Shown: piece by piece, positions 28,655 to 59,280 of the stretch | Layout: each line of letters starts with the position of its first letter | Position numbering within the stretch: the stretch's first letter is position 1 | NCBI RefSeq assembly: GCF_002077135.1 | Contig: NZ_LDOS01000002.1 | Coordinates: forward strand, 868,001-932,000 | Direction of reading: 5' to 3' | Length of the DNA: 64,000 nt | From: Metallibacterium scheffleri | Lineage (GTDB): Bacteria > Pseudomonadota > Gammaproteobacteria > Xanthomonadales > Rhodanobacteraceae | Notes under the pieces: generated by a model | What the model saw: the letters and a program-made list of their open reading frames with translations, nothing else | What the model was told of the DNA's origin: nothing | Database searches by the model: none | Made by a program: the position numbers and the translations under genes

Positions 28655-28714
28655 CTTATGCCTGCGCACGGGCTGTGACCAGATGCAATCGCCGCGAAAA
28701 TTGATCTGGATCAA
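28655..28714 (-). promoter_or_regulatory. FNR/Anr-type box and possible -10 of the hydrogenase operon
   Basis: A perfect palindromic FNR/Anr box TTGATCTGGATCAA is at 28701-28714, centred 95 bases upstream of the hupD start. No -10 is seen at the class II distance. CATAAG (minus strand, 28660-28655), 48 bases from the centre, would place the box near -60, a class I arrangement. The region 28613-28768 holds no gene. Confidence 0.7.
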
Positions 28715-29283
28715 ATCCGACGCAGAATGCTGATCCGGCAACCCCGGCCGCGGCATGCATGCAGCGGTTCAGTCGGCCAGCGCGAAGGCCTGTTGTTGCT
28801 GCGCCAGCGCATCACCCAGAGCCGCGCGCAGCGCGGGATCCTGGCGATACACGTCGGGTACCAGACCGACCCGGCCATCGGGCGCTACAGCAACGGTCCA
28901 GTAAATCATGCGCAGTGGCACGGATGGGTTCAGCGGCACGTCGCGGGTCACGTCATAGCTGGCCGCGGTCTGCAGGCTTTCCGCATTCCAGCGCACGGGA
29001 TCGCCGAGCAGCAGTTGCGCCAGTTCCATCGCGTTTTCCACGCGCACGCAGCCCGAGCTGAAGGCGCGTCGGGTCTGTGCGAACAAGGCCTTGTGCGGCG
29101 TGTCGTGCAAATACACCTCGTGGGTGTTGGCGAAGCGGAATGCGACCAGGCCCAGTGCACCGTCGGGGCCCGGATCCTGACGCAGGGTCAGCCCCGAGGG
29201 CGGTCGCGTCCAATCCCCGCCGCGTCAGACTAGTTGTCGCCTCCATAGAACCCCTACCCTGAAGGCGGCGATGGAGAACTGAA

Positions 29284-29757
29284 GTGGCTCGATACGGACA
29301 ACGATTCAAGGAACGCGCGGTGGCCCGCTTGCTGCCGCCGGAGAGTGGTGCGCTGGAGGTGGTGGCGCGGGAAGTGGGCATTGGCGTGTGGACGTTGGCG
29401 CGCTGGCGCGAGGAGGTTCGGTGCCGGGTTGCCCCGGCACGATCCTGGACGGCGGACGCACGCCTTGATGCGGTGATCACGGCCGCGGCGCTGGACGCGG
29501 TGGGCAAGAGCGCGTGGTGTCGCGAGCACGGCGTGTTTCCGGCGGATCTGGATGCGTGGCGTGCGCGGGCCACGGCAGCGCTGGGGGCCTCCGAAGCGAC
29601 CGCAGCCGGCACCCAAGGCAGCCCTCAGGACCGCCGGCGCATCAAGGAGCTCGAACGCAACCTGCTGCGCAAGGATCGCGCCCTGGCGGAGACCGCGGCG
29701 CTGCTGGTGCTGTCAAAAAAAGTTGCGGCGATCTTCAACAACGGCGAGGACGCATGA
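29284..29757 (+). CDS. IS3-type OrfA (helix-turn-helix protein)
   Basis: A 157-residue DNA-binding ORF. The N-terminus RFKERAVARLLPPESGALEVVAREVGI, here split, is an HTH resembling HTH_Tnp_1; a second HTH-like segment and a C-terminal leucine-zipper-like helix (IKELERNLLRKDRALAETAALL) follow. An A7 run at 29715-29721 near its 3' end is a likely -1 slippery site giving an OrfAB fusion. The stop TGA overlaps the OrfB ATG (ATGA), so separate translation is also possible. Confidence 0.85.
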   Translation: MARYGQRFKERAVARLLPPESGALEVVAREVGIGVWTLARWREEVRCRVAPARSWTADARLDAVITAAALDAVGKSAWCREHGVFPADLDAWRARATAALGASEATAAGTQGSPQDRRRIKELERNLLRKDRALAETAALLVLSKKVAAIFNNGEDA

Positions 29758-30842
29758 TTGTCCTCGAAGATCGCCAAGCCTTGGCCCAACACATTGGCGT
29801 GGCGCATCGCGCCGGCGCGCGACTACAGCTTGCCTGCGAGACCGCCGGGATCGACCTGCGCACTCTGCAGCGCTGGAAGGCCCACGATGGCCTCGCCGAG
29901 GGCGATGGCCGGCCCCGGTCCATCCACCCGGCGCCCGGTCACGCCTTGAGCGAGATCGAGCGGGCGCAGCTGCTGCAGGTGGCCAACGCGCCGCGCTTCG
30001 CGGACGTGCCGCCGGCGCGCATCGTGCCCATGCTCGCCGACGAGGGCGTCTACCTCGCCAGCGAGTCGACCTTCAGCCGCGTGCTGCGCGCGCAGGGCCA
30101 GACCGCCCACCGTGGACGCGCCAAGGCACCCCGGGCGGTGCGCCCACCCACCACGCACCGCGCCACCGCACCGCGCCAGGTGTGGTGCTGGGACATGACC
30201 TATCTGCCCGCGCAGGTGCGCGGGCGCTGGTTCCACTTGTATCTGATCCTGGACCTGTACAGTCGCAAGATCGTCGGCGCCGAGGTGCACGACACCGATC
30301 ACGCCGACCATGCCGCGCAGCTGGTGCACCGTACCGCGTTGGCCGAAGGGATCGCCTGCCTGGAGACCAAGCCGGTCCTGCACGGCGACAACGGCTCGAC
30401 CCTCAAGGCCACCACGGTCCTGGCAATGCTCCACTGGCTGGGCGTGAAGCCCTCGTACTCGCGCCCGCGCGTGAGCGATGACAACGCCTATGCCGAGTCG
30501 CTGTTTCGTACCGCCAAGTACCGGCCCGAGTTTCCGGCCCAGGGCTTTGCCGACCTCGACGAGGCCCGCATCTGGGCGACCCGCTTCGTGCACTGGTACA
30601 ACGTCGATCATCGCCACAGCGGCATTCGCTACGTCGCACCCGCTCAGCGCCACGCCGGAGACGATCACGCGCTCCTGGCGGCGCGCCATGCGCTCTACAC
30701 CCAGGCGCGCGAACGCCATCCCTCACGATGGTCCGGCCGCACCCGCAACTGGACGCCGATCGGCGCCGTCACACTCAACCCGGAACGCGACGCAGTCGCC
30801 ACCACGCAAGGGGATGCCGATACACAGCCGTTGGCTGCCTGA
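29754..30842 (+). CDS. IS3-family transposase OrfB
   Basis: Catalytic part of the transposase, 362 aa when read from its own ATG. The integrase core shows the three acidic residues: D in WDMTYLP (about 143), D in HGDNGS (about 210) and E in NAYAESLFRTAKY (about 245), with the K/R of the DDE(K) motif in the same helix. The fold continues with HWYNVDHRHSGI, typical of IS3. The ORF is intact, so the element may still be mobile. Confidence 0.92.
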   Translation: MIVLEDRQALAQHIGVAHRAGARLQLACETAGIDLRTLQRWKAHDGLAEGDGRPRSIHPAPGHALSEIERAQLLQVANAPRFADVPPARIVPMLADEGVYLASESTFSRVLRAQGQTAHRGRAKAPRAVRPPTTHRATAPRQVWCWDMTYLPAQVRGRWFHLYLILDLYSRKIVGAEVHDTDHADHAAQLVHRTALAEGIACLETKPVLHGDNGSTLKATTVLAMLHWLGVKPSYSRPRVSDDNAYAESLFRTAKYRPEFPAQGFADLDEARIWATRFVHWYNVDHRHSGIRYVAPAQRHAGDDHALLAARHALYTQARERHPSRWSGRTRNWTPIGAVTLNPERDAVATTQGDADTQPLAA

Positions 30843-32174
30843 CCGAGGCGACAACTACCTTGACGCGCGCCGAATCGATTGCGTTGTCCGGCACGATTTG
30901 CCCTTGACGATCGAACACGCGCAAATGATTGCGTGCGAGATAATCGGGATCGCGGCGCAGCTTGGCGAGCATGTCCTCGCGCAGGATCGTCGGCGGTACC
31001 ACCCATGAGGGGTCGATGGTCAGCCGCGTGATGGCCGAGCGCAGCACTGGCGTGGGCCGCCGCGGCTGGCCCACTTGCACACGCGTGGACCAGGCCAGGC
31101 GGCCATCGTCGTAGTAATCGAGGCGGTAATTGGCGAGATCGACCTGCACGTAGCGTGGCGGCAGATCGTGCAGGTACCAGCGCGCGCGCTCCAGATCGAG
31201 GCGCAGTTGCTCGATGCGCGTGGTCACCGGCACATTCAGCGCCGCCAGCGTGGCGGGGCCGACCACGCCATCGGCTTGCAACCCGTGCTGGCTCTGGAAC
31301 GCGCGCACGGCGTTGGCCAGCGCCGCATCGTCGTCATCAGCGTCGCCCTGCGGCGTGCGGGTCAGGTCACCGGAAATCAGCAGCCGCCTGCGCAACAGCG
31401 CCACGCGCGCGTCCTGCATGCAGGCTCGAGCGCCAGTCCGGCGGGCAGCGCGGGCCAGCCGCCGGCGGCGGCCTCATCGCGCAGGCGCTGCAGCGCCGTG
31501 CGCAACTGCGCGTAGACCGGTGCGGAGGGGCGCGCCGCGTCAAACGCCGCAGTGATGTGCCCGGCTTCTGCTGCGTGCGCGGCGGCCTGCAGCCACGCAG
31601 CGGATGCGGACCACCGCGGCGTGGCCTGCCAATCCGGATAGAACGTATCGACGTCGAGCACGCCATGGCGCAATTGCAGCAATGCCAGCAGATAGGCCGC
31701 GCTGGCACGCACATCGATGTCAGCGCGTTGTGCATCGGTCATTGGCACGTGCTCTTGCAGCCGCAGCACATCGCGTGCGAGGCGATCGCCACCGTAATCC
31801 TGCGCGGCCAGACCATCATCGACCAGACCATCGAGCGCATCATCGAGCGCGCGCAGGCGCGCAGCGGATTGCCACAGGGGCGCGTCGGCGCGTTGCGCAT
31901 AAAAACGCGAAACCAGCGCGCCCAGCGTGTGGTCGCCGATTCGCAGCACACCCAGCGGCTGCTGCGCCAGAGCGTCAAGGCGCGTGGCGATGGCGGTTTG
32001 CGGCGCGGTGTCGGGTACCTGCGCCTGCGCGCAGGTTGCGATCAGCAGGGCGAGCACGATCCAGGCGTATCTGATCATGAGTGGCGGGTCGCTTTGGACA
32101 TGGAAATCCCGTCGCATTCTGCGCTTGCGCGACGTGTTCAGGAACGGCGCGTGCTCAGCCATTACGATACGAAC

Positions 32175-32948: not shown

Positions 32949-34133
32949 TCAACTGCGCAACAGTTTGAACGTGTGCTGCGCGATCATCAGTTCTTCATCT
33001 GTGGGGATCACGCGCAGCGCGATGCGCGAGTCGGGCGCGGCGATATCGAGCACGCCCGTGCTGCCAGCATTGGTCACGGCATCGAGACGCGCGCCGAACA
33101 GGTCCAGGCGCTGCACGATCGCGGCGCGCGCGCCGGGCGCATGCTCGCCGATGCCGGCGGTGAACACGATGCCATCGAGGCCGCCCATGCTCGCCGCCAT
33201 CGCCGCCACGCTCTGCGCGACGCGATGCGCGAACACGGCCAGCGCCAGCCGTGCCGCCGCGCTGTCGCTGGCCAGCAGCTCGCGCATGTCGCCGCTGAGC
33301 CCGGACAAACCCTTCAGCCCACAGTCGTGATATAGCAGGTGGCTGATCTGCGCCGCATCGTGGCCTTGCTCCTGCGCCAGATACAGCACCACGCCGGGAT
33401 CGAGGTTGCCCGGGCGCGTGCCCATCACCAGGCCTTCCAGCGCCGAGAATCCCATCGTGCTGTCCACGCTGCGCCCGCCTTGCAGCGCGCACAGTGAGGC
33501 GCCGTTGCCGAGGTGCGCAATCACGGTGCGACCGCGTGCCAGATCGGGCGCGACGCTGGGCAGGCGCGCGGCGATGTACTCGTAGGACAAGCCATGGAAC
33601 CCGTAGCGGCGCACGCCCGCGGCGATGAGCGATTGCGGCAGCGCGTACAGGTCCATCTCGGGCGCGTGGCCGTGATGAAACGCGGTGTCGAAGCAGGCCA
33701 CCTGCGGCAACTGCGGCTGGCGCTGCAGCAGCGAGCGGATCGGCGCGAGGTTGAACGGCTGGTGCAAGGGCGCCAGCGCGCTGAGCGCCGCGAGCCTGTC
33801 CAGAATCGCCGCATCAATGCGCACGGGCTGCCAGAAATCGACACCGCCGTGCACCACGCGATGGCCGACCGCATCGGGGGCCGCGCCGAGGTGCGTGGCG
33901 ATCCAGTCGTTGACCACGGCTTCCGCCGCGGCGACATCGGGCACGGCTTGGATGTCCAGCGTGCGATCAACCAGGCCATGCCCGGCCGCGTCATGCGCCT
34001 GCAGTCGCGGCGTGCTGCCGATGCCGGCCAACTGGCCCTGTTGCAACAGTTCCAGCGTGTCGTTGTCGCCGCTGCGAAACGCCGCGAACTTGATGCTGGA
34101 ACTGCCGGCATTGAGAACCAGGATGCAAGTCAT
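32949..34133 (-). CDS. ackA: Acetate kinase
   Basis: Interconverts acetyl phosphate + ADP and acetate + ATP. It is 394 aa. The acetokinase signatures VLNAGSSSIKFA (residues 5-16) and HGLSYEYIAARLP are clear, as are HLGNGASLCA and GFSALEGLVMGTRPGNLDPG. The C-terminus carries GIGEHAPGAR and the IPTDEELMIA motif. It is third in phaC-pta-ackA and pairs with the phosphate acetyltransferase 43 nt upstream to make ATP from acetyl-CoA when respiration is limited. Confidence 0.96.
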   Translation of the reverse strand: MTCILVLNAGSSSIKFAAFRSGDNDTLELLQQGQLAGIGSTPRLQAHDAAGHGLVDRTLDIQAVPDVAAAEAVVNDWIATHLGAAPDAVGHRVVHGGVDFWQPVRIDAAILDRLAALSALAPLHQPFNLAPIRSLLQRQPQLPQVACFDTAFHHGHAPEMDLYALPQSLIAAGVRRYGFHGLSYEYIAARLPSVAPDLARGRTVIAHLGNGASLCALQGGRSVDSTMGFSALEGLVMGTRPGNLDPGVVLYLAQEQGHDAAQISHLLYHDCGLKGLSGLSGDMRELLASDSAAARLALAVFAHRVAQSVAAMAASMGGLDGIVFTAGIGEHAPGARAAIVQRLDLFGARLDAVTNAGSTGVLDIAAPDSRIALRVIPTDEELMIAQHTFKLLRS

Positions 34134-34176: not shown

Positions 34177-35598
34177 TCAGCCCGCTTTCGCCGCCGGCAC
34201 CGCCATGCTCAGCAGCACCGCCAGCGCGCACGAGGCCATGCGTGCATCCGGCAGGTCGGCGCGACTGGTCAACACGACCGGGACGCGCGCGCCCAGCACG
34301 ATGCCGGCGACCTTGGCCTCGGCGAGGTACTCGAGCTGCTTGGCCAGCATGTTGCCTGCTTCGAGATCGGGCGCCAGCAGAATATCTGCATGGCCCGCCA
34401 CCGCTGAGACGATGCCCTTGGTCTTGGCGGCCGCGGCGGATACTGCGTTGTCGAATGCGAGTGGACCGTCGAGCACTCCGCCAGTGATCTGGCCGCGGTC
34501 GGCCATCTTGCACAGCGCGGCGGCGTCGATCGTGGAGGGGATCTTGGGCGTGACGGTTTCCACCGCGGACAGAATCGCCACCTTGGGCCGCGCCATGCCC
34601 AGCGCGTGCGCCAGATCGATGGCGTTTTGCACGATGTCGCGCTTGGCCTCCAGATCGGGAACGACATTCACCGCCGCGTCGGTGAGCAGTTGCAGCGTCG
34701 GCCAGTTCACCGCGTCGATCACGAACACATGGCTGATGCGGCGCGCGGTGCGCAGGCCGAGTTGCGCGTCGACCACGGCGTGCATGAGTTCATCGGTGTG
34801 CAGCGAGCCTTTCATCAGTGCCTGCACTTCACCGCTGCGCGCCATCGCCACGGCCTGCGCGGCGGCGGCGTGACTGTGTTCGGTCGCGATCAGCCGGTAC
34901 GGCGCGATGTCGATATGCGCGGCCTCGGCTGCGGCACGGATGCGCGCCTCGGGTCCGACGAAGACGGGGGTGATCAGTCCGGCCTGCGCCGCGTCAACGG
35001 CACCGCCCAGCGACACCGCATCGACCGCGTGCACCACCGCCATCGCCAGCGGCGCATGGCCGGCCATGGCCACGCGTGCCTGCTCGATCAGCGCGCGCAG
35101 TTTCACGCCTGGATCGCGCAACTCCAGCTTCGGCAAGTGCACGCGCGGGCGACTGACTTTTTCAGTGGGGATGATCACCTGCGCATCGCCTTCCACCACG
35201 ATCTCGTTGCGCTGGTTGATCACTTCGCAGTGCAGTGTGGCGCGCGGGATATGGCCGGTCGCGGCATCGATGGCGCTCACGGTGACGGTGACGCGCACGC
35301 TGTCGCCGAGAAATACCGGCTTGCGGAATTTCAGACTCTGGTCCAGATACACCGTGCCGGGTCCCGGCAGTTCGGTGCCGAGCACGGTGGAGATCAGCGC
35401 CGCGCTCCACATGCCGTGCGCCACGACCTCGTGAAAACGATCGCTGGCGGCGAATGTGGCATCGACGTGCGAAGGATTCACGTCCCCGGACATCAGCGCG
35501 AAGGTTTCGACATCGCCCTGGGTGAACGTGCGCGTCAACGATGCCGTATCACCAACCCGGAGTTCGGCCAACGGACGATTTTCGATCATCTCGGTCAT
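34177..35598 (-). CDS. MaoC hydratase-like / phosphate acetyl(butyryl)transferase fusion
   Basis: A 473-residue two-domain protein. Residues about 8-140 form a MaoC-like hot-dog domain (FTQGDVETFALMSGDVNPSH with the catalytic-type D and H). Residues about 165-470 are a phosphate acetyl/butyryltransferase (LMKGSLHTDELMHAV, VFVIDAVNWPTLQLLTDAAV, GPLAFDNAVS). It would make acetyl or butyryl phosphate for ackA. The hot-dog half may hydrate enoyl-CoA or bind acyl-CoA, linking to the PHA pool; that is inference. Such fusions are known in Proteobacteria. It sits 27 nt downstream of phaC. Confidence 0.88.
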   Translation of the reverse strand: MTEMIENRPLAELRVGDTASLTRTFTQGDVETFALMSGDVNPSHVDATFAASDRFHEVVAHGMWSAALISTVLGTELPGPGTVYLDQSLKFRKPVFLGDSVRVTVTVSAIDAATGHIPRATLHCEVINQRNEIVVEGDAQVIIPTEKVSRPRVHLPKLELRDPGVKLRALIEQARVAMAGHAPLAMAVVHAVDAVSLGGAVDAAQAGLITPVFVGPEARIRAAAEAAHIDIAPYRLIATEHSHAAAAQAVAMARSGEVQALMKGSLHTDELMHAVVDAQLGLRTARRISHVFVIDAVNWPTLQLLTDAAVNVVPDLEAKRDIVQNAIDLAHALGMARPKVAILSAVETVTPKIPSTIDAAALCKMADRGQITGGVLDGPLAFDNAVSAAAAKTKGIVSAVAGHADILLAPDLEAGNMLAKQLEYLAEAKVAGIVLGARVPVVLTSRADLPDARMASCALAVLLSMAVPAAKAG

Positions 35599-35624: not shown

Positions 35625-37415
35625 TCAGCGTTGCAGCACGTAACTGCCGGGTGCGTCCGCCAGTGGCGGCAGTTCCGGCGCGCCCATGCGCGGCGGCGCC
35701 ACCAGGCCGCTGCCGTGCGCCGCCAGCCAGTCATGCCAGCGCGGCCACCACGAGCCTTGCTCCGGTTGCGCCTGTTGCAGCCATTGTTCCGGCGCGATGA
35801 ATGGGGCGCCCTGCGCGTGCGTGGCCCAACGATAATGCCGGCGCGGATGTCCAGGCTCGCTGACGATTCCGGCGTTGTGGCCGCCGCTGGTCAACACGAA
35901 GGTCACGTCGCGGTCGGTCAGCAAGTGGATCTTGTACACCGAGCGCCATGGCGCGACATGGTCGGACTCGGTGCCGATCACGAACCAGGGCTGGGTGATG
36001 TCTTCCACGGCGACGGCTTGGCCATTCACTTTCCAGCGCCCTTCGGCCAGGTCGTTGCGCAAATAGAGGCCGCGCAGATATTCACTGTGCATGCGGAATG
36101 GCATGCGCGTGGCGTCGCTGTTCCAGGCCATGAGGTCATTGGGCGGCCGGCGCTGGCCGAGCAGGTAATCGCGGGTGATGCGTGACCAGATCAGGTCGTA
36201 GGAGCGCAGCATCTGAAACGCGCCGGCCATCTGCGTGCCATCCAGGTAGCCTGGTCCCCACATCATGTCTTCGAGGAAGGTCACCTGGCTCTCGTCGATG
36301 AACAGCGACAGCTCGCCGGGTTCGGTGAAATCGGTTTGCGAGGCCAGCATTGTGACCGTGGCAAGGCGCGTGTCGTTCTGCGCCGCCAGGGCAGCCGCGG
36401 CGATCGCCAGCAGTGTGCCGCCGAGGCAGTAGCCGGCGGCGTGCACCTTGCGCCCGGGCACGATGCGCTGCACGGCATCGAGTGCCGCCAGCGGGCCCAG
36501 CGTGAGGTAATCGTCCATGCCCAGGTCGCGATCGCCCGCATCGGGGTTTTTCCACGAGATCATGAACACGGTATGGCCTTGATCGACCAGGTACTTGACC
36601 AGCGAGTTGCCGGGTGAAAGATCCAGGATGTAGTACTTCATGATCCACGCCGGCACGATCAGCACCGGCTCGGCGTGCACTTGCGGCGTGGACGGGCTGT
36701 ACTGGATCAACTCGGCCAGCCGGTTGCGCAGCACCACCTTGCCCGGCGTGATCGCCACCTGCCGGCCGGGGATGAAGTGCTCGCTGCCCGCGGGTGGCAG
36801 GCCGCCGAGCGCGCGCTGCATGTCGTCCATGCAGAGCTTGCTGCCTTCGAGCAGATTCATGCCATTGCTCTTGAGCGTGGCCTCGATGACTTCGGGGTTG
36901 GTGAATGGTGAGTTGGTGGGCGCCAGCATGTCCAGCCACTGCCGCGCCATGAACGCCACCATCTGCTCGTGATGCCCGGACACGCCGCGCACGCCGCTGG
37001 TGGCGTGCTGCCACCACGCCTGCTGCTGCAAAAAAGCGTGCGCGTAAAGATTGAACGGATAACGTTGCCATGCGGGGTCGGCGAAGCGTTGATCCGGCAC
37101 CTGCAGCGCCGGATCGCCGGCGTCGTTGTTCACCAGCGCGTGGCCCTGCAGCGCGCGCATCCAGTCCACCACGCCATTGGCAAGTGCCTGCGCCAGTTCG
37201 CTGGCCAGTTCCATGCGCTTCATCGGCGAGCCGGCCAGGTGCAGCCGCCAGTCCATGGATGCCTGGGCCAGCGCCGCGGGCGAGAGGCCAAAGGTGAAGC
37301 GCGCCAGCGCTGCATGCACGCTGCGATCCAGCGGGGGGACGGTCGCTTGTGGTTGCGCCATCAGCGGTTGCATGGAGGCGGTCGCATTCGGAGAGGAAGT
37401 GGGGTGGTCGTTCAT
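35625..37415 (-). CDS. phaC: Poly(3-hydroxyalkanoate) synthase, class I type
   Basis: Polymerises 3-hydroxyacyl-CoA at the granule surface. It is about 596 aa from MNDHPTSSP; the in-frame MSLEKS at 37433 is an alternative start. The lipase-like box GYCLGGT (about residue 308) carries the active cysteine; the triad Asp lies in GTESDHVAPW and His in SGGHNAGIVS. The N-terminal PhaC_N region (FTNPEVIEATLKSNGMNLL) is present. It heads phaC-pta-ackA and is transcribed divergently from the phasin gene from a shared region with an FNR-type box. Confidence 0.95.
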   Translation of the reverse strand: MNDHPTSSPNATASMQPLMAQPQATVPPLDRSVHAALARFTFGLSPAALAQASMDWRLHLAGSPMKRMELASELAQALANGVVDWMRALQGHALVNNDAGDPALQVPDQRFADPAWQRYPFNLYAHAFLQQQAWWQHATSGVRGVSGHHEQMVAFMARQWLDMLAPTNSPFTNPEVIEATLKSNGMNLLEGSKLCMDDMQRALGGLPPAGSEHFIPGRQVAITPGKVVLRNRLAELIQYSPSTPQVHAEPVLIVPAWIMKYYILDLSPGNSLVKYLVDQGHTVFMISWKNPDAGDRDLGMDDYLTLGPLAALDAVQRIVPGRKVHAAGYCLGGTLLAIAAAALAAQNDTRLATVTMLASQTDFTEPGELSLFIDESQVTFLEDMMWGPGYLDGTQMAGAFQMLRSYDLIWSRITRDYLLGQRRPPNDLMAWNSDATRMPFRMHSEYLRGLYLRNDLAEGRWKVNGQAVAVEDITQPWFVIGTESDHVAPWRSVYKIHLLTDRDVTFVLTSGGHNAGIVSEPGHPRRHYRWATHAQGAPFIAPEQWLQQAQPEQGSWWPRWHDWLAAHGSGLVAPPRMGAPELPPLADAPGSYVLQR

Positions 37416-37588
37416 GGATTTCTCGAGAGACATGTCGAGCGGATGCATCCTGCATACCGCTGCCCGATCGAACGCGCGCTGCATGGGTGGGTGCCTGGTC
37501 ACGGTTGACCGGGCTGCAATCCACGTAACCCTTCATCGCCGCGGCGGGCTGCGGCGTTCGGGCGCGGCCCGGCGCGATGGCGATGTGA

Positions 37589-37658
37589 ACTTTAGTCTCG
37601 GCAATCGACATCCCTCTTGATCTGGATCAAGGATTGTGCTTGCACCTGCGGCTAAAGT
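37589..37658. promoter_or_regulatory. Divergent FNR/Anr-dependent promoter pair (phaC and phasin operons)
   Basis: A perfect box TTGATCTGGATCAA at 37617-37630 is centred between two identical -10 elements. TAAAGT on the plus strand is at 37653-37658 and TAAAGT on the minus strand at 37594-37589, each 30 bases from the centre. This puts the box at about -41.5 for both directions, the class II position, with starts near 37665 (+) and 37582 (-). The 5' leaders would be about 140-165 bases. The remaining sequence in 37434-37805 shows no gene. Confidence 0.78.
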
Positions 37659-37805
37659 GTTCGCCTCAAGCATCGATTCGCTCGCGTCAATCGATGTTTT
37701 TCGACTGCACGGGCGCGAGCTGTCCATGGTCCACATCGGACCACATCGTGCGACTCGCGCCGCACCGCTCGCATACAACCGCGCATCACGCGCCAGGAGT
37801 TCGTC

Positions 37806-38354
37806 ATGATCTCGACCACGCAACTCGATGAACTGAAAAAACTGCACAAGGACCATATCGCCAATACATTCCTGTTCACCTCCAAGGTGCTCGATCAGTA
37901 CAAGCGCATGAGCGATGCGCATGCCGAAGTGCTGCATGGCATGTTGCGTGATTTCTCGATGACCAGTGCACTCAATGGCAACGACCCCACGGCACTGGCG
38001 CAGGAAGCGATGAGCCTGATCACCCGGAATTTTGCCAATCAAAGCAATCGCTCCGGCAACTTCATCAGTGAAACCGCGGCGGCCTACGCCGAAATCATGC
38101 GTCTGGTGGTGCAGTACGGCACCGACAGTTTTGTCGGCGCGCAGAGCGTCAGCCGCAGCGCGACCGATGCTGGGTCGCCGCAACCACAGAATCTGCAAAA
38201 CGCCTGGATGGCGCCGTTCATGAGCGCATTCCAGAACGCGGCCAGCATGATGACCGCGGGCATGGGTTCGCTGACTGCGCTGCAGCCGGCCTCGAACAGC
38301 GCGGCCAACGTCGCGGACATCAAGCCGGTGACAAGCGGCAAATCCGCCAAGTGA
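37806..38354 (+). CDS. Phasin family PHA-granule protein
   Basis: A 182-residue protein, helical and rich in Ala, Gln, Ser and Met, with an N-terminal phasin-like coiled region (LDELKKLHKDHIANTFLFTS) and a C-terminal low-complexity tail. Phasins coat PHA granules and control their size. AGGAG lies six bases before the ATG. It is first in the plus-strand operon driven from the shared FNR-box region, opposite phaC. The family assignment rests on general resemblance and context. Confidence 0.8.
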   Translation: MISTTQLDELKKLHKDHIANTFLFTSKVLDQYKRMSDAHAEVLHGMLRDFSMTSALNGNDPTALAQEAMSLITRNFANQSNRSGNFISETAAAYAEIMRLVVQYGTDSFVGAQSVSRSATDAGSPQPQNLQNAWMAPFMSAFQNAASMMTAGMGSLTALQPASNSAANVADIKPVTSGKSAK

Positions 38355-38426: not shown

Positions 38427-38897
38427 ATGAGTACCTTCAAGCATCTTCTGGTTCCGATCGATGGCAGTTCCGGGGCCGATCAAGCCATCGCCAAGGCCTT
38501 GGTTCTGGCTGCTGACCAGCACGCAACGGTGCATTTCGTGCATGTCATCGATCGTGCCGCGGTCGTGATGATGGAGCCATTGAGCAGCTTCGACAGCGAG
38601 GTGACTGCCGCCGTCAATGCCGCCGGTGAGCTGCTGCTGGGGCAGGCCACGGCGCAGGCACGCGAGCACGATGTGCCCAGCACGCAGGCACTGCGCATCA
38701 CCGACGGCAAACTGCCGACGATCGCCGATCAGATCCTCGAAGAGGCGCGGGCGCACGCCGTGGATCTCATCGTCTGCGGCAGCCACGGCAAGACCGGATT
38801 TCGCGCCATGATCCTGGGCAGCGTGGCGGAAGGACTGATCCACCGCAGTCGCGACATCCCGCTGCTGCTGATTCCCACGCAGCCCCCGCGACGTTGA
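38427..38897 (+). CDS. Universal stress protein (UspA family)
   Basis: A 156-residue single Usp domain. The N-terminus FKHLLVPIDGSSGADQAI and the C-terminal ATP-loop GSHGKTGFRAMILGSVAEGL (G-x2-G-x9-GS pattern) followed by IPLLLIP are diagnostic; the loop predicts ATP binding. Usp genes are frequent members of Anr/FNR regulons and support survival under oxygen limitation. It is co-oriented between phasin and phaB. Confidence 0.94.
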   Translation: MSTFKHLLVPIDGSSGADQAIAKALVLAADQHATVHFVHVIDRAAVVMMEPLSSFDSEVTAAVNAAGELLLGQATAQAREHDVPSTQALRITDGKLPTIADQILEEARAHAVDLIVCGSHGKTGFRAMILGSVAEGLIHRSRDIPLLLIPTQPPRR

Positions 38898-38978
38898 TCC
38901 CATGCGGCGCCGTGCGCCGATTTGCGCCGGTCGGGGCGCTGGCGCACCTTTCATTCACGATTCTGGAGACGGCTCGTC

Positions 38979-39716
38979 ATGACTTCCGCATCACAGCGGT
39001 TCGCGCTGGTGACTGGCGGCACGCGCGGCATCGGCGCGGCCATCGCGCGGCGTCTGGCGCACGATGGTTACCGCGTCGCCGTGACCTATCACGGCAATGA
39101 CGCGGCCGCGCAGGTGTTCACCCGGGACACCGGCATTCGCGCCTACAAGTGGGATGCCGCGGATTTCACCGCCTGCCAGGCCGGCGTGCACCAGGCCGAA
39201 ACCGACGCCGGGCAGCCGCTCGACATTCTGGTCAACAACGCCGGTGTCACGCGCGATGTCACGCTGCACAAGATGACGCCGGAGCAATGGCGCACGGTGC
39301 TCGAGGACGACCTGTTCGCCTGCTTCAACATGAGCCGCGCGGTGATCGAGGGCCTGCGCGCGCGCGGCTGGGGGCGCATCGTCAACATTGCTTCGATCAA
39401 CGGCCAGAAGGGTCAGTTCGGACAGACCAATTATTCCGCCGCCAAGGCCGGGGTGATCGGTTTCAGCAAGGCGCTGGCGCTGGAGTCGGCGCGCAAGGGC
39501 ATCACCGTCAACGCCGTGGCGCCGGGTTATACCGCGACCGAGATGCTCGCCAGCATGGATGCCAGGGTGCTGCAAGGCATCGTCGCGCAGATCCCGCTGG
39601 GGCGCCTGGCGCAGCCTGACGAAATCGCGCACGCAGTGGCGTTTCTGGTGCACGAGCAATCGGGCTTCATCACCGGCGCCACGCTGTCGATCAACGGCGG
39701 GCAGTACCTTGCATGA
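38979..39716 (+). CDS. phaB: Acetoacetyl-CoA reductase (NADPH)
   Basis: Short-chain dehydrogenase making (R)-3-hydroxybutyryl-CoA for PHB synthesis. It is 245 aa from MTSASQRFALV; the start is supported by GGAG ten bases upstream. The cofactor motif TGGTRGIGAAIA (about residues 11-22), NNAGVTRD, the catalytic serine in NIASINGQKGQFG and Y-x3-K in NYSAAKAG match PhaB. The C-terminus ends GQYLA. The stop overlaps the next start (ATGA). Confidence 0.94.
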   Translation: MTSASQRFALVTGGTRGIGAAIARRLAHDGYRVAVTYHGNDAAAQVFTRDTGIRAYKWDAADFTACQAGVHQAETDAGQPLDILVNNAGVTRDVTLHKMTPEQWRTVLEDDLFACFNMSRAVIEGLRARGWGRIVNIASINGQKGQFGQTNYSAAKAGVIGFSKALALESARKGITVNAVAPGYTATEMLASMDARVLQGIVAQIPLGRLAQPDEIAHAVAFLVHEQSGFITGATLSINGGQYLA

Positions 39717-39973: not shown

Positions 39974-40330
39974 ATGCCCCATGCCATGCATCAGCGTCTG
40001 GATGAAATCCAGCAACTGCTTGACACCCTCGGCAAAAGCCACCCCGATGAGGTCGGCGCGTTCGTCAATTTCATGGGCAAGGCCGAGGCCGGACCGGCGC
40101 TGTCGCTCAAGCAGAAGGAACTGGTCAACGTCGCGCTGTCGGTTGCGGCGCAATGCGAGTGGTGTATCGCGCTTCACGTCAAGAATGCCCTCAATGCCGG
40201 GGCCAGCCGTGACGAGCTGGTCGAGGCCGGTTTTCTCGCGGTACTGATGCATGGCGGTCCCGCCTTGATGTACCTGACGCCGCTGCTGGATGCGGTGAAC
40301 GAATTCAGCACCGGTGCAACGCCGAACTGA
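39974..40330 (+). CDS. AhpD/carboxymuconolactone decarboxylase-like protein
   Basis: A 118-residue alkylhydroperoxidase-D-like protein. The active-site motif CEWCIALHVKNAL (C-x2-C-x3-H, about residues 56-63) is intact, with LSLKQKELVNVALSVAAQ before it and the C-terminal helix GGPALMYLTPLLDAV after. Such proteins act as thiol peroxidase partners or in stress defence; the substrate is unknown. It lies 24 nt after the lpd-like gene and 73 nt before phaA. Confidence 0.88.
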   Translation: MPHAMHQRLDEIQQLLDTLGKSHPDEVGAFVNFMGKAEAGPALSLKQKELVNVALSVAAQCEWCIALHVKNALNAGASRDELVEAGFLAVLMHGGPALMYLTPLLDAVNEFSTGATPN

Positions 40331-40403: not shown

Positions 40404-41588
40404 ATGTCAAACCCTGAAATCGTGCTGTGCGCGCCCGTGCGCACCGCCATCGGCACCTACAACGGCTCACTCAAGAACACGCCCGCCACCGCCCTCGGCG
40501 GCGTGGTGGTGCACGCCACCTTGCAACGCGCCGGTTTGGCCGCCGATGCCGTGCAGACGGCGGTGTTCGGCCATGTCATCCAGGCCGGCTGCAAGATGAA
40601 TCCTTCGCGCCAGGCGGCCATCGGCGGCGGCCTGCCGGTGGAAGTGCCGGCGATGACCGTCAACCGCGTGTGTGGTTCGGGTGCGCAGGCCATCGTCAGC
40701 GCAGCGCTGGAAATCATGGCCGGACAAATCCAGTGCGCCGTCGCCGGCGGCATGGAGAACATGGACCTGGCGCCCTACCTGCTGCCCGGCGGACGCTGGG
40801 GCATGCGCATGGGCGATGGCCACGTGCTCGACAGCATGCTGCTCGATGGCCTTAACGACGCCTTCAGCGGCGAGCATTCCGGTTGGCACACCGAAGACCT
40901 GGTGACCCGTTGCGGCCTCACCCGCGAACAGCAGGACGCCTGGGCGCTGCGTTCGCAGCAGCGGTTCTCCGCCGCGCAGGCGGCTGGCAAGTTCGACGCC
41001 GAGATCGTCGGTGTCGAAGTCAAAGACCGCAAAGGGCCGCAGACGTTCATCAAAGATGAGCACAACCGCCCCGACACCACGGCCGCATCGCTGGCCAAAC
41101 TCAGGCCCGCGTTCCGCAAGGGCGGCACCATCACCGCGGGCAATGCGCCGGGACTGAACAGCGCGGCCAGCGCCATGATCGTCGCCGAGCGTGGCTGGGC
41201 CGAGCAGCACCATCTGCGCCCACTGGCACGGCTGGCGGGCTATGGCGTCGCGGCAGTCGAGCCGGGCTACTTCGGCCTGGGCCCGATCCCGGCGACACAG
41301 ATGGCGCTGCAGCGCGCAAAGTGGGCGATCAAGGATGTGCAGCGCGTGGAGATCAATGAGGCTTTTGCAGCCATCGTGCTTGCCTGCACGCGCGAGTTGG
41401 GCTTCGGCGCTGACATTGTCAATGTCGAGGGCGGCGCCATCGCGCATGGCCACCCGATCGGCGCGACCGGTGCCATTCTCACCACGCGGCTCATCCACTC
41501 GATGCATCGCGACGGGCTGAAAAAAGGCGTGGTCACGCTGTGCATCGGCGGCGGGCAGGGCATCGCACTGGCGCTGGAGATGCTGTGA
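40404..41588 (+). CDS. phaA: Acetyl-CoA acetyltransferase (beta-ketothiolase)
   Basis: Condenses two acetyl-CoA to acetoacetyl-CoA, the first step to PHB. It is 394 aa from MSNPEIV with GAGG upstream. The acylated cysteine is in NRVCGSGAQAIVSA (about residue 90), the second signature is NVEGGAIAHGHPIGATGAI, and the C-terminal active-site cysteine lies in LCIGGGQGIALAL. With phaB and phaC it completes the PHB route in this island. Confidence 0.96.
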   Translation: MSNPEIVLCAPVRTAIGTYNGSLKNTPATALGGVVVHATLQRAGLAADAVQTAVFGHVIQAGCKMNPSRQAAIGGGLPVEVPAMTVNRVCGSGAQAIVSAALEIMAGQIQCAVAGGMENMDLAPYLLPGGRWGMRMGDGHVLDSMLLDGLNDAFSGEHSGWHTEDLVTRCGLTREQQDAWALRSQQRFSAAQAAGKFDAEIVGVEVKDRKGPQTFIKDEHNRPDTTAASLAKLRPAFRKGGTITAGNAPGLNSAASAMIVAERGWAEQHHLRPLARLAGYGVAAVEPGYFGLGPIPATQMALQRAKWAIKDVQRVEINEAFAAIVLACTRELGFGADIVNVEGGAIAHGHPIGATGAILTTRLIHSMHRDGLKKGVVTLCIGGGQGIALALEML

Positions 41589-41667: not shown

Positions 41668-42705
41668 ATGAAGGCACTTGTTTATCAGGGTCCGGGGAAG
41701 AAGTCGCTGCTGGATCGCCCGCAGCCAGTCTTGCGCGACCCGGGTGACGCCATCGTCCGGGTCACCAGGACCACGATCTGCGGCACTGATCTGCATATCC
41801 TCAAGGGCGACGTGCCGACCTGTGCGCCCGGCCGCATCCTCGGCCACGAGGGCGTCGGTGTGGTCGAAGCCGCAGGGGCTGGTGTGGCTTCCTTCAAACC
41901 GGGCGATCACGTGCTGATCTCCTGCATCTCCGCGTGCGGCCGATGCGAATACTGCCGGCGCGGCATGTATTCACACTGCACCACGGGCGGCTGGATCCTC
42001 GGCAACGAGATCGATGGCACGCAGGCCGAATACGTGCGTATTCCGCACGCCGATACCAGTCTGTATCCGATTCCAGCGGGGGCGGACGAGGACGCATTGG
42101 TCATGCTGAGCGACATCCTGCCGACTGGTTTCGAGTGTGGTGTTCTCAACGGCCAGGTCGCGCCCGGCGGCACGGTTGCGATTGTTGGGACAGGTCCGGT
42201 CGGTCTTGCCGCGCTGCTGACCGCCAGGTTCTATTCACCGGCGGAGATCATCGCCATCGACCTTGATGACAACCGGCTGGCCGTGGCGCAGCGTTTCGGC
42301 GCCACCCTGACCATCAACAGCGGCAAGGCGGATGTCACCCGGATCGTGCGTGATCGCACGAATGGTCGCGGCGTGGACACCGCGATCGAGGCCGTCGGCA
42401 TCCCCGCCACCTTCGACATCTGCCAGAACATCGTCGCGCCCGGCGGGGTGATCGCCAATGTGGGTGTACATGGCAGCAAGGTCGACCTGCATCTGGAATC
42501 GCTTTGGTCGGCCAATATCTCGATCACCACGCGGCTGGTCGACACATCCTCGACCCCGATGCTGTTGAAGACCGTGGCCGCCAAAAGGATCGATCCGAAG
42601 GTGCTGATCACGCACCGCTTCAAGTTGGCGCAGCTTATCGAAGCCTACGAAGTATTCGCCAACGCCGCCAGGCATCAGGCCCTGAAAGTGATCATCGAGC
42701 CATGA
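41668..42705 (+). CDS. Zinc-dependent alcohol dehydrogenase (MDR family)
   Basis: A 345-residue medium-chain dehydrogenase. Catalytic zinc ligands are C in TICGTDLH (about residue 38), H-E in GHEGVG and a downstream Glu/Cys. The structural zinc loop CGRCEYCRRGMYSHC is complete (about 90-104). The nucleotide motif GTGPVGLAAL is at about 170. It resembles the NAD-dependent alcohol/formaldehyde dehydrogenases often induced in Anr regulons; the substrate is not determined. It follows phaA after 79 nt with GGAGG before the start. Confidence 0.9.
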   Translation: MKALVYQGPGKKSLLDRPQPVLRDPGDAIVRVTRTTICGTDLHILKGDVPTCAPGRILGHEGVGVVEAAGAGVASFKPGDHVLISCISACGRCEYCRRGMYSHCTTGGWILGNEIDGTQAEYVRIPHADTSLYPIPAGADEDALVMLSDILPTGFECGVLNGQVAPGGTVAIVGTGPVGLAALLTARFYSPAEIIAIDLDDNRLAVAQRFGATLTINSGKADVTRIVRDRTNGRGVDTAIEAVGIPATFDICQNIVAPGGVIANVGVHGSKVDLHLESLWSANISITTRLVDTSSTPMLLKTVAAKRIDPKVLITHRFKLAQLIEAYEVFANAARHQALKVIIEP

Positions 42706-42862: not shown

Positions 42863-42905
42863 TGTGCGCGACTGCACGGCTGCCAAACATGCAAGGACAA
42901 CGCTC

Positions 42906-43697
42906 ATGAGCAAGCATCACACCAAACATCACGCCACTGCGTCTGACGCGGGCTATGGCAAAACCCTGCACGCGCTGCAAATCGAGCTGGTGAAGTTCCA
43001 GAAGCATCTGATCGCGCATGGCGATCGCATCCTGATCCTGCTGGAAGGGCGCGACGGCGCGGGCAAGGACGGCACCATCAAACGCATCGTCGAACACCTC
43101 TCGCCACGCGAAACGCGCGTGGTGGCACTGGGCAAGCCATCGAGCCGGGCAGAATCGGCGTGGTACTTCCAGCGTTATGTGCCGCACTTGCCGGTGGCAG
43201 GGGAGTTCGTGCTGTTCAACCGCAGCTGGTACAACCGCGCCGGGGTGGAATGGGTGATGGATTTCTGCACCGAGGCGCAGTACGAGGAGTTCATCGAAAC
43301 CGTGCCGGTGTTCGAGCAGATGCTGGTGCGCTCGGGCATTCAACTGTTCAAGTACTACCTCGACATCGACAAGGCCGAACAGAAGCAGCGCCTCAAAGAC
43401 CGGCTCACCGACCCGCTCAAGCAGTGGAAGATGAGCCCCATCGACGCAGCGGCGCAGAAGCACTGGAAGGCATACAGCTCGGCGCGCAACGCCATGCTGG
43501 CGCGCACCCACAGCGCAGTGGCGCCATGGACGGTGGTGCGGGCGAATGACAAGAAACGCGCGCGCCTGGGTCTGATCATGGATCTGCTCGCGCGTCTGGA
43601 TTACAAGGGCAAGGACCATGCCTTGCTGTGCCCCGATCCCGGTATCGTGTTTGCCTATACCAGTCAGACCGTGGACAGTGGGGCCATCGCACCCTGA
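42906..43697 (+). CDS. ppk2: Polyphosphate kinase 2 family protein
   Basis: A 263-residue PPK2 that uses polyphosphate to phosphorylate ADP or GDP. Walker A is GRDGAGKDGTIKR (about residue 45), Walker B-like FNRSWYNRAGVEWVM (about 105), and the lid module is QRLKDRLTDPLKQWKMSP (about 165). The length and single domain fit class I PPK2. A short His-rich N-terminus (KHHTKHH) precedes it. Context next to PHA and stress genes fits energy-reserve use under oxygen limitation. Confidence 0.93.
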   Translation: MSKHHTKHHATASDAGYGKTLHALQIELVKFQKHLIAHGDRILILLEGRDGAGKDGTIKRIVEHLSPRETRVVALGKPSSRAESAWYFQRYVPHLPVAGEFVLFNRSWYNRAGVEWVMDFCTEAQYEEFIETVPVFEQMLVRSGIQLFKYYLDIDKAEQKQRLKDRLTDPLKQWKMSPIDAAAQKHWKAYSSARNAMLARTHSAVAPWTVVRANDKKRARLGLIMDLLARLDYKGKDHALLCPDPGIVFAYTSQTVDSGAIAP

Positions 43698-55785: not shown

Positions 55786-56526
55786 ATGAGCATCGACTGG
55801 TGGACGATCGGCCTGCAGGCGATCAATGTCCTGATCCTCGTCTGGCTGCTTGGGCGCTATTTCTGGCGCCCAGTGGCGGACATCATTGCCAAGCGTCAGG
55901 CGGCTGCGAAGGAATTGCTCGAATCGGCTCGCACGCGGCGCGACCAGGCCGATGCCACTTTGGCCGAGGTGGTGCAACTCCGCGCGACGATGGCGCAACA
56001 GCGCGCGGATTTGCTGGCCAAGGCACAGGGCGAGATCGAACAGATGCGTGCCCAGCATTTGCTGCTTGCCGCGCAACAGGCGCAAGCCGTGCTGGATGCC
56101 GCGCAAGTCGAGCTCGCCAGGCGGCAGGCTGCCGCGGAACACATCTGGCGGGAACATGCCGCGCAGCTCGCCGTAAGCATCGCCCAGCGCTTGGCCGCGC
56201 GGCTCGACTCCGCCGCTGTGCGCGAGGCCTTTCTCGGCTGGCTGCTGCATGACTTGCGCGTCCTGCCCGAGGTGACACTGCAGGCGCTGGCGCGCACCGG
56301 CAATGCCGATGTCATCAGCGCCATGCCTCTGGATGCTGTCGAGCAGGCCCATCATGCCGAGCAGATCGGCGCGGCTCTGGGTACGCCGATGGCGTTGACG
56401 TTCAGCACCGACCCGGCGCTGATCGCCGGGCTGGAACTGCACAGCGCGCACCTGGTGGTGAACAACAGCTGGCGAGCCGATCTCGCCCGTATCCTGGAGG
56501 ATCTCGGCGATGTCGAACACGCCTGA
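55786..56526 (+). CDS. atpF: N-type ATPase b subunit with extended C-terminus
   Basis: A 246-residue protein: one N-terminal membrane helix ([20 protein letters not shown]), a long Ala/Gln/Arg-rich coiled coil (about 35-150), then about 90 residues resembling the delta subunit C-terminal part ([17 protein letters not shown]). Standard b subunits are about 156 aa; no separate delta gene exists in the operon, so the extension probably replaces it. It overlaps atpA by 17 bases. Confidence 0.9.
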
Positions 56527-58060
56527 AACACCCGCCGATGCATGGCTTGCAAGTGCAAGGCAGCGCATCGGCTCTACCGCGCTGGAGGCGCGGGCGGAAC
56601 AGATCGGCCGTGTGGAATCGGTGAGCGATGGCATTGCCATGGTGTCGGGTCTGCCACAGGCGCGGCTCGATGAATTGTTGCGCTTCGAGCGCGGGCAGTT
56701 CGGATTTGCCCAGGTGCTCGAGCGCGATCACATTGGCTGCGTACTGCTCGATGGCATCGATGAAGTGCAGGCTGGCGATGTGGTGCACGGCACCGGCGAT
56801 GTGGTGCGCGTGCCAACCGGCGACGCCCTGCTGGGACGGGTGGTCGATCCGCTGGGGCGACCGCTGGATGGCAGGGGATCGGTCACCAGCGATACACGGG
56901 AACCCATCGAGCGCCCGGCACCTGACATCGTCGAACGCGACCTGGTGACCCAGCCGGTGCAGACCGGTCTGCTGGTGATCGATACCTTGTTCGCGCTGGG
57001 ACGCGGGCAGCGTGAACTGATCATCGGCGATCGCGCCATCGGCAAGACCACCATCGCCATCGACACCATCATCAACCAGAAATACAGCGACATCGTCTGT
57101 ATCTACGTGGCGGTGGGCCAGAAAAGTGCGAACGTGCGCCGCGCCATCGATGCCATCCAGGCGCATGGCGCACCCGAGCGCTGCATCGTGGTCGTGGCGC
57201 CGGCATCCAGCGCGCCGGGCCTGCAGTGGATTGCCCCATTTGCCGGTTTCACCATGGCCGAGCATTTCCGTGATCGCGGCCAGCATGCATTGGTCGTCAT
57301 CGACGATCTGAGCAAGCACGCCGCCAGTCACCGCGAAATCGCCTTGCTCACGCGCCAGTCGCCGGGCCGCGAGGCCTATCCTGGCGACGTGTTCTATGTG
57401 CATGCACGGCTGCTGGAGCGTGCTGCGAAGCTGTCCAAGGCCAGGGGTGGCGGTTCGCTCACCGCGCTGCCAATCGCCGAGACCGATGCCGGCAACCTCA
57501 GCGCCTATATTCCGACCAATCTGATTTCGATTACCGACGGGCAGATCGTGCTGAATGCGCGATTGTTCGATGAGGGGTTGAAGCCCTCGGTGGACGTGGG
57601 TGTGAGTGTCAGCCGGGTCGGTGGCAAGACCCAGGCCCCCGCGTTGCGGCAAGCCGCGCAGACGCTGCGCCTGGACTACGCGCAATTTCTCGAACTGGAA
57701 ATCTTCACCCGTTTTGGTGGCATGCCCGACACGCGGGTGCGTCAGCAACTCACGCGTGGGGCGCGGATCCGCGCCATTCTCGGCCAGCCGCAGCACGTAC
57801 CCTTGCGCCTGGCTGAGGAAGTCGCGCTGGTGTTGGCGGTGCAGTCCGGTCTGCTCGATGGCATGGCATTGCCTCAGGTCGAGACATTTCGTCGAGGTCT
57901 TGCAGAGGCGCTCGATGGCGGAGCGGCGGCGGCCGTGCGCACGATCCAGGAGCAGGGCACACTGCCGGACAGCGCACGGGAGTCATTGCTCGAAACCCTG
58001 CGCAAGTATCTGCAAACCCTGACATCATCGAGCGCCGCAGCACAGGCGGAATCGGCATGA
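56510..58060 (+). CDS. atpA: N-type ATPase F1 alpha subunit
   Basis: Non-catalytic nucleotide-binding subunit, 516 aa. The P-loop reads [13 protein letters not shown] (about residue 170), where most alpha subunits have [31 protein letters not shown] (for the common DDLSKQAVAYR) and the arginine finger region ISVTDGQI-like ISITDGQI with [10 protein letters not shown] are seen. Numerous small substitutions are usual for N-ATPases. Confidence 0.94.
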
Positions 58061-58941
58061 CCGAACGCCTCGCTGAAATCGAAGCCCGCATCCATGGCAC
58101 GCAGCAGCTTGGTGCCGTGGTCAACGCCATGCGCGGCATGGCGGCGGCGCGTGCTCAGCAGGCGCGTGATCAGCTCACGGCGGTCGAAAGTTATGCCGCG
58201 GCGATCGCCGACGCCATCGGCAGCGCGCTGGAACTGGTCCCCGCAACCGGCATGGCCATGCCGCCGGCCACTGCCGGCCGTGCACTGGTGCTGTTTGGCG
58301 CCGAACAGGGTTTTGCGGGTGCGTACAGTGAACGCATCCTGGATGCCGCTGGCGCGCAACTGCCGCATGCCCAACTATTCCTGATCGGCACCCATGGATT
58401 GACGGCGACAGCCGAACGCGGCCTGCATCCAGTCTGGACCGATGCCATGCCCACGCATACCCAGGGCATACCCAAGCTGGCCGATCGCATCGTCGAGGCA
58501 CTGTATGCGCGCATGAGCGCGCACGCGATCGAGCGGCTCGAGGTCGTGTTCAGCCGCTGGCACCCCGCTCATCCGATCCAGGTTGAAAGTCGCCGTCTGC
58601 TGCCGCTCGACTCCTCGATCTTTCCGCACAGGACGCGGCGCGCGGCACCCTTGGTCAATCTCGCGCCGGTCGAGCTCCTGCAAGAACTCATCGCGGACTA
58701 CCTGCATGCCCAGCTTTGCGATGCCGCGTTGCACGCCTTCGCCGCCGAGAATCAGGCACGCATGGAAACCATGACGGCGGCGCACCAGCAGATCGACAGG
58801 CAACTCACCTCCTTGCAGGCGATCCAGCGACAGGTGCGACAGGAAGCGATCACCGAGGAGATCATCGAGCTTGCTGCGGGCGAGACAGCCAGCCGCGCGG
58901 CCGATCAGGACGCCGCGATGCGTCGGCTGCCACGACCCTAG
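58057..58941 (+). CDS. atpG: N-type ATPase F1 gamma subunit
   Basis: A 294-residue rotor shaft subunit. The N-terminal helix [19 protein letters not shown] and the C-terminal helix ([20 protein letters not shown] with IIELAAG) form the coiled coil; the middle contains [15 protein letters not shown], matching the gamma GLCGxxN region. It ends the operon and overlaps atpA by four bases. Confidence 0.92.
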
Positions 58942-59235: not shown

Positions 59236-59280
59236 ATGCCATCATTCCTGCTGATCGCGAATAGATGGCAATACGCATGA
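59236..59280 (+). CDS. Possible 14-residue leader peptide upstream of the regulator
   Basis: ATG at 59236 follows GGGAGGA at a short distance (three bases from GGAGG) and encodes MPSFLLIANRWQYA. Its TGA overlaps an ATG (59277) of the Crp/Fnr-family gene as ATGA. The regulator has no ribosome binding site of its own at either possible start, so coupling to this ORF would explain its translation. This is weaker evidence than for normal genes. Confidence 0.4.
   Translation: MPSFLLIANRWQYA

Follow-up and report, generated by a model that had tools for sequence, protein, structure and literature searches.

Whether one dimer of a class II activator can serve two opposed RNA polymerases is a question for which the region between two divergent PHA operons offers an unusually clean natural test piece. 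In the present study, we analysed this region within a window of 64,000 nucleotides, which is the whole stretch of DNA under analysis and to which the coordinates refer. One FNR/ANR/DNR-type box lies here between the genes of a PHA synthase and a phasin-like protein, with the same hexamer mirrored on its two sides, and this observation of the box, the mirrored hexamers and their spacing was confirmed. We consider it quite probable that the region works as an FNR-type class II promoter in both directions, with one box for both operons. Polymer synthesis, granule coating and acyl-phosphate formation would then be tied to one predicted low-oxygen signal.

The divergent operons

The following genes were assigned to the two sides of the region:

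32949-34133, minus strand, acetate kinase family gene
34177-35598, minus strand, MaoC domain fused to phosphate acetyl/butyryltransferase (NF006045, 684 bits, cut-off 282)
35625-37502, minus strand, phaC, PHA synthase (GTG open reading frame as listed, with ATG starts downstream)
37806-38354, plus strand, phasin-like gene, the first of the rightward operon (by position and by sub-cut-off Phasin_2 matches in orthologues)
38427-38897, plus strand, universal stress protein (Usp)
38970-39716, plus strand, phaB-like short-chain dehydrogenase
39974-40330, plus strand, carboxymuconolactone decarboxylase (CMD) family protein
40404-41588, plus strand, phaA-like thiolase
41668-42705, plus strand, zinc alcohol dehydrogenase
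42864-43697, plus strand, polyphosphate kinase 2 (PPK2), a candidate member of the rightward transcript

The gene content given in the preliminary description of this DNA, with synthase, PTA and acetate kinase genes leftward and a rightward operon starting from the phasin-like gene, was supported by computation. The label of phasin is a weak one. It is favoured by the position of the gene and by Phasin_2 matches in two orthologues, both below the cut-off (L120, E 0.006; L121, E 0.013), but Phasin_2 was not matched by the window copy or by that of L122, and for the window copy no match to any family rose above chance. The phasin-like protein was found in 5 of the 13 genomes of the genus, own included, with no match in the other 8, and among 121 genomes drawn from the order the own genome was the only one with a match, none being detected in the 120 others at E 1e-8. 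Between 32800 and 45400, 12 terminator-like sites were counted against a mean of 6.6 in shuffled sequences, a difference that fixes no operon end, and the extents of both operons are predicted ones. The MaoC-PTA fusion (34177-35598) and the adjoining acetate kinase family gene could serve acetate or butyrate. In addition, an insertion element with an rve integrase open reading frame (about 29284-30842) lies inside an apparent L,D-transpeptidase gene of the minus strand; the pieces of this gene are at 31377-32162, 30775-31419 and perhaps 28769-29116 (the last with no Pfam match), and the interrupted region spans 28769-32162 overall.

Geometry of the intergenic region

The features of the predicted promoter region are:

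37589-37594, minus strand, -10 hexamer TAAAGT (ACTTTA on the plus strand), facing phaC, predicted start near 37582
37617-37630, no strand assigned, FNR/ANR/DNR-type box TTGATCTGGATCAA centred at 37623.5, where one regulator dimer is predicted to bind
37653-37658, plus strand, -10 hexamer TAAAGT, facing the phasin-like gene, predicted start near 37665
37671-37696, plus strand, inverted repeat CATCGATT...AATCGATG and then TTTTT, at about +7 to +32 of the predicted phasin-side transcript

Only one box was found between the divergent phaC and phasin-like genes when up to one mismatch was allowed, and it matches the FNR/ANR consensus TTGATNNNNATCAA perfectly. It had been described as a perfect palindrome, which is slightly overstated: the arms TTGATC/GATCAA form a perfect 6-bp match, but the central dinucleotide TG is not self-complementary. 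The further claim, that TAAAGT stands on both sides in opposite orientation and at equal distance, was found to be exact, since both hexamer centres lie 32.0 bp from the centre of the box. The nearest bases of the hexamers are 29.5 bp away from that centre, and 22 bases separate box and hexamer on either side. The mirrored identity is longer than the hexamer and covers the 7-mer CTAAAGT; the hexamer itself agrees with TATAAT at 4 of 6 positions. If the hexamers are the -10s, the centre of the box falls at -41.5 in either direction, and the -10 placement of an FNR-type class II promoter is found on both sides relative to the predicted starts. This two-way class II geometry was computed from the placement of the hexamers, and the starts recomputed in the same way (37582 on the minus and 37665 on the plus strand) have the values proposed earlier. 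In the available excerpts of one study of Escherichia coli FNR, 19 of 23 directly activated promoters with a known start have the site within 4 nt of -41.5 (PMC3688515). The class II site of E. coli FNR stands at about -41.5 in one direction, whereas here one site fits both directions.

Rarity and class II spacing of the box

The genome searched has 3,755,691 bases in 5 contigs. The perfect pattern TTGATN4ATCAA occurs 9 times in it, against 0 for the reversed-pattern control, and the exact 14-mer TTGATCTGGATCAA is present in 4 copies. Among the nine perfect boxes, only that at 37617-37630 is flanked on each side by TANNNT at the class II distance. The chance frequencies were estimated roughly from 200,000 flank pairs, generated by a first-order Markov model of 37503-37805 in which the feature itself was included. 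TANNNT appeared on both sides at 22 in 0 of the 200,000 pairs and on both sides within 21-23 in 7e-5 of them, while hexamers with at least 4 of 6 matches to TATAAT on both sides had a frequency of 2.05e-4 and an identical mirrored hexamer one of 5.6e-4. As two-sidedness is rare in the simulation and the genome holds only nine boxes, a two-sided site by chance is unlikely within the precision of these rough estimates, and the earlier statement on this point was borne out. It is very improbable, in our judgement, that the arrangement is accidental and has no regulatory role, in view of the 9 boxes against 0, the simulated frequencies, and the spacing at phaC loci and at other boxes that is described below.

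For the 8 other perfect boxes of the genome, the neighbours of 4 were identified. The box beside a Rieske-subunit TAT-signal protein (L101) and that of L100 are one-sided with TANNNT at 22, the box beside HiPIP (L102) is one-sided with TANNNT at 23, and L099 has TCTAAT at 22 on one side. No TANNNT at class II spacing was present at L103 (DsrE-family gene), L104 (the box at 28701), L106 and L107. The sequence at 28701-28714 is a second exact copy of the 14-mer in the window; it lies where a hydrogenase maturation protease open reading frame begins, a gene for a [NiFe] hydrogenase small subunit follows downstream, and there is no -10 at class II distance on either side of it.

The spacing was also evaluated over 22 distinct perfect boxes. 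Sites L123-L134 were excluded from this set because they had been retrieved by the two-sided pattern, and further exclusion of the target and its near-identical relative left 20 boxes with 40 sides. TANNNT at gaps of 21-23 was found on 8 of the 40 sides, versus 17 over the other 57 gaps together. A search of 274 genomes of the class, with the own genome among them, gave a raw count of 12 sites with the two-sided pattern, spread over 11 genomes. Pfam was applied to the genes beside 6 of the 11 non-target sites (L124-L128 and L130), which had been picked by eye as low-oxygen-like. The families found there were cytochrome cd1 with tetrapyrrole methylase, cytochrome bd subunit I, Usp with a cytochrome c biogenesis region, peptidase U32 with SCP2, globin with GCV_H, and hemerythrin; the genes beside L123, L129, L131, L132 and L134 were not low-oxygen-like by eye. 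Since two-sided sites stand beside cytochrome cd1, cytochrome bd and other genes of the class, the design may recur.

Comparison with related genomes

The nearest relative compared (G012, locus L019) is a MAG labelled Rhodanobacter sp. It has the same box at the same spacing of 22 on both sides, with TAAAGT toward phaC and TAAGGT (3/6) toward the phasin-like gene, so that TAAAGT is kept on the phaC side and changed on the phasin side. From 37588 to 37630, which covers the box and the phaC-side -10, 40 of 43 positions are identical to the window. In the phaC leader (37503-37588) only 44 of 86 are identical, the conserved stretch stopping at the phaC-side -10, and a separate DNA match to G012 starts at 37587, at the same edge. 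This sharp edge could be one of recombination. On the phasin side (37661-37805) the identity is 138 of 145, which says little, as the whole region is about 95% identical.

Two further loci come from genomes close to each other (L035/L120 in G002 and L036/L121 in G003), and their PhaC is about 64% identical to that of the window. Both have a one-mismatch box, with TACGCT (3/6) at 22 toward phaC and TACTGT or TAGTGT at 23 toward the phasin-like gene. In a third genome (G011, locus L122) there is no phaC at the locus; the phasin-like gene faces pta, a one-mismatch box lies between them (L122:1331-1344), and the site is one-sided, with TACTAT toward pta and CACTCT toward the phasin-like gene. Two-sidedness in the TANNNT sense is thus found at 4 of the 4 same-genus loci that have both genes (window, L019, L035 and L036), whereas the fifth locus is one-sided. 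The comparison of related genomes, which the preliminary description had proposed as a check, therefore came out well for L019, L035 and L036, where a box with at most one mismatch and the two-sided TANNNT are kept, but not for L122. The conservation in the relatives supports a function of the site.

The same comparison bears on the idea that CTAAAGT is not a -10 at all but a site for a different regulator, with its two copies forming an inverted repeat on either side of the box. The identity over 7 bases does go beyond what a -10 requires. However, the relatives read CTAAGGT, TACGCT, TACTGT and TAGTGT, so that only TA...T is kept, as for a -10, and other boxes, too, have an excess of TANNNT at the class II distance. 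This second-motif reading is very unlikely, and we retain the reading of the hexamers as -10s.

Control of phaC was surveyed more widely in 80 loci kept from 494 relatives, 6 of which have less than 300 bp upstream and were kept in the denominator. A box with at most one mismatch was found within 500 bp upstream of the first matched phaC codon in 24 of the 80 loci, and 9 of these 24 have TANNNT at 21-23 toward phaC, versus about 2% (1.8%) at random points; several of the loci are close kin, so these counts are not independent. With this limit, FNR-type control of phaC looks fairly common. Four of the 9 are two-sided (L019, L035, L036 and L054) and 5 one-sided; over all boxed loci, 20 of the 24 are not two-sided. 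Locus L054 lies outside the genus. It has two one-mismatch FNR boxes 64 bp apart, the first 184 and the second 120 bases before the phaC match; TANNNT stands on both sides of the first, at spacings of 23 and 22. A box before phaC is also present in L021 (Thiomonas delicata) and in L029 and L030 (Proteobacteria MAGs), with no TANNNT at 21-23; they were not counted since their phaC-side hexamers, TACAAG/TACAAA, are without the final T. This agrees with the available excerpts of published work, in which FNR-family regulators are needed for phaC or target it directly in Herbaspirillum seropedicae (PMC5934665) and Pseudomonas extremaustralis (PMC9049629), and Fnr acts on both phaC1 and a phasin gene in Herbaspirillum (PMC5934665).

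These counts also allow a one-sided arrangement to be weighed, in which the box activates the phaC operon only, the phasin-facing hexamer is coincidental and that operon is under another promoter. In its favour, TAAAGT is unchanged in L019 toward phaC, where the conserved stretch ends, but reads TAAGGT toward the phasin-like gene, and before phaC a class II site occurs slightly more often on one side than on both (5 of the 9 with a phaC-side TANNNT have none opposite). Yet a chance TANNNT at 21-23 is expected on about 2% of sides, and the phasin side has one in all four genus loci, with differing letters. Moreover, a scan for sigma70-type promoters that work without an activator gave none on either strand of 37400-37900; this is the expected result for an activator-dependent promoter, though no proof of one. 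We regard control of phaC only as unlikely, and prefer a promoter that works in both directions.

Candidate regulators

HTH_Crp_2 has 10 matches in the genome, 7 of them over the cut-off. Two of the proteins (L108 and L109) have CX2CX5C aligned on the cysteines of FNR chains, a later Cys and the helix AETVSR, and match FNR chains at E 3.1e-37 and 2e-41. FNR-family regulators with the iron-sulphur cysteines are therefore present in this genome. One further candidate is encoded in the window itself:

59265-60038, plus strand, Crp/Fnr-family regulator, recognition helix METVSR, without the N-terminal CX2CX5C

In this protein the later cysteine is present and the match to FNR chains starts at residue 49; against PDB chains the values are 1.5e-24 for FNR and 2.6e-7 for DNR. 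It had been named earlier, as the 59.3-kb regulator, for binding to the box. The FNR-type recognition helix agrees with this proposal, and the protein could bind the box as judged from its sequence, but it is without the CX2CX5C which the two other regulators have, and for this reason should not sense oxygen in the FNR way. If this DNR-like regulator were the one that binds the box, the signal would be nitric oxide or another one, and not oxygen itself. Such an assignment is a variant of the best explanation and not its opposite. It is suggested by the location of the gene in the same window, by the METVSR helix and by a Dnr site which is reportedly indistinguishable from the Anr box in the available excerpts of PMC5398030. 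It is opposed by the presence of L108 and L109, which have CX2CX5C and suit the same box, and by an FNR chain match far closer than the DNR one, and we hold it to be rather doubtful. The neighbourhood of this regulator contains an ATP synthase alpha-type gene and, by eye, a gamma-like gene (56510-58941).

Proposed mechanism and known systems

In the proposed mechanism, an FNR-family dimer would bind 37617-37630 at low oxygen, or at another signal in the case of the DNR-like regulator. With the box at -41.5 and a -10 on each side, the same dimer could contact RNA polymerase facing either way. It would thereby activate phaC with the genes for the MaoC-PTA fusion and acetate kinase in the leftward direction, and in the rightward direction the phasin-like gene together with usp, phaB, the CMD gene, phaA and possibly further genes. 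The predicted starts are 83 bp apart, and at this separation two RNA polymerase footprints with upstream contacts would overlap. It follows that two polymerases probably cannot bind at once, and the two sides would alternate on one DNA molecule while rising together in the cell population. The earlier proposal that a single dimer switches both operons together is accordingly plausible for the population, but on one molecule a clash of the two polymerases is probable. A more speculative idea, to which we give a small probability, is that the exact mirror was selected because one dimer gives the polymerase to either side equally, the mutual exclusion then leading to a fixed ratio of synthase to granule-coat transcripts. 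If true, alternation at a fixed ratio would make the DNA symmetry a switch that sets stoichiometry.

The nirQ/nirS region of Pseudomonas aeruginosa is said to be a precedent for a shared site, for which the portions of the literature searched gave no confirmation. A close precedent was found in Dinoroseobacter shibae, where the available excerpts of PMC5398030 describe one Fnr/Dnr site that lies between nirS and nosR2 and serves both, at -39.5 and -41.5, with lacZ fusions in both directions, regulator mutants and a site mutation on the nirS side, as well as another single Fnr/Dnr site between hemA3 and dnrE. In the nirS/nosR2 region as in the present one, two divergent operons have a single FNR-type site between them, near -41.5 from either start (predicted starts in the present case). 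They differ in that the D. shibae site has distances of -39.5 and -41.5 and serves denitrification genes, whereas the predicted site of the window is an exact 32.0/32.0 mirror with identical hexamers and stands between genes for PHA, granule coat and acyl phosphate. The divergent ubiT/ubiUV operons of E. coli are both under Fnr, but by two separate Fnr sites in the excerpts available (PMC10470549), and they were dropped as a single-site precedent for this reason.

For the shared -10 promoters of E. coli, it is reported in the accessible parts of PMC12825309 that DNA symmetry gives starts both ways, that opposed polymerases interfere and that an activator of one direction tends to act as a repressor of the opposite one. 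Those promoters have one common -10 region, whereas here two separate -10s, with 58 bases between them, stand around the activator site. A shared -10 promoter was also considered for the window and set aside, as the hexamers at 37589-37594 and 37653-37658 are separate. Among the PHA systems, no shared two-way synthase/phasin site was found in the available excerpts on H. seropedicae (PMC5934665) and P. extremaustralis (PMC9049629), and the literature searched, as far as available, gave no published case of one FNR site lying between a synthase operon and a phasin operon, which is a weak negative. The architecture is already known, and the present site appears to add an example that is conserved in its essentials. 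What sets it apart is the exact mirror, together with the pairing of a synthase with a probable granule-coat operon.

Leader of the predicted rightward transcript

A 35-base piece of the inverted repeat at 37671-37696 folds at -11.5 kcal/mol, and Rfam gave no match in 37300-37900 at E up to 1. The repeat could be a 5'-end stabiliser or an early terminator of the phasin-side transcript. In L019 one base of an arm is changed from A to G, by which G.U pairing in RNA is still possible, and the T run is shorter.
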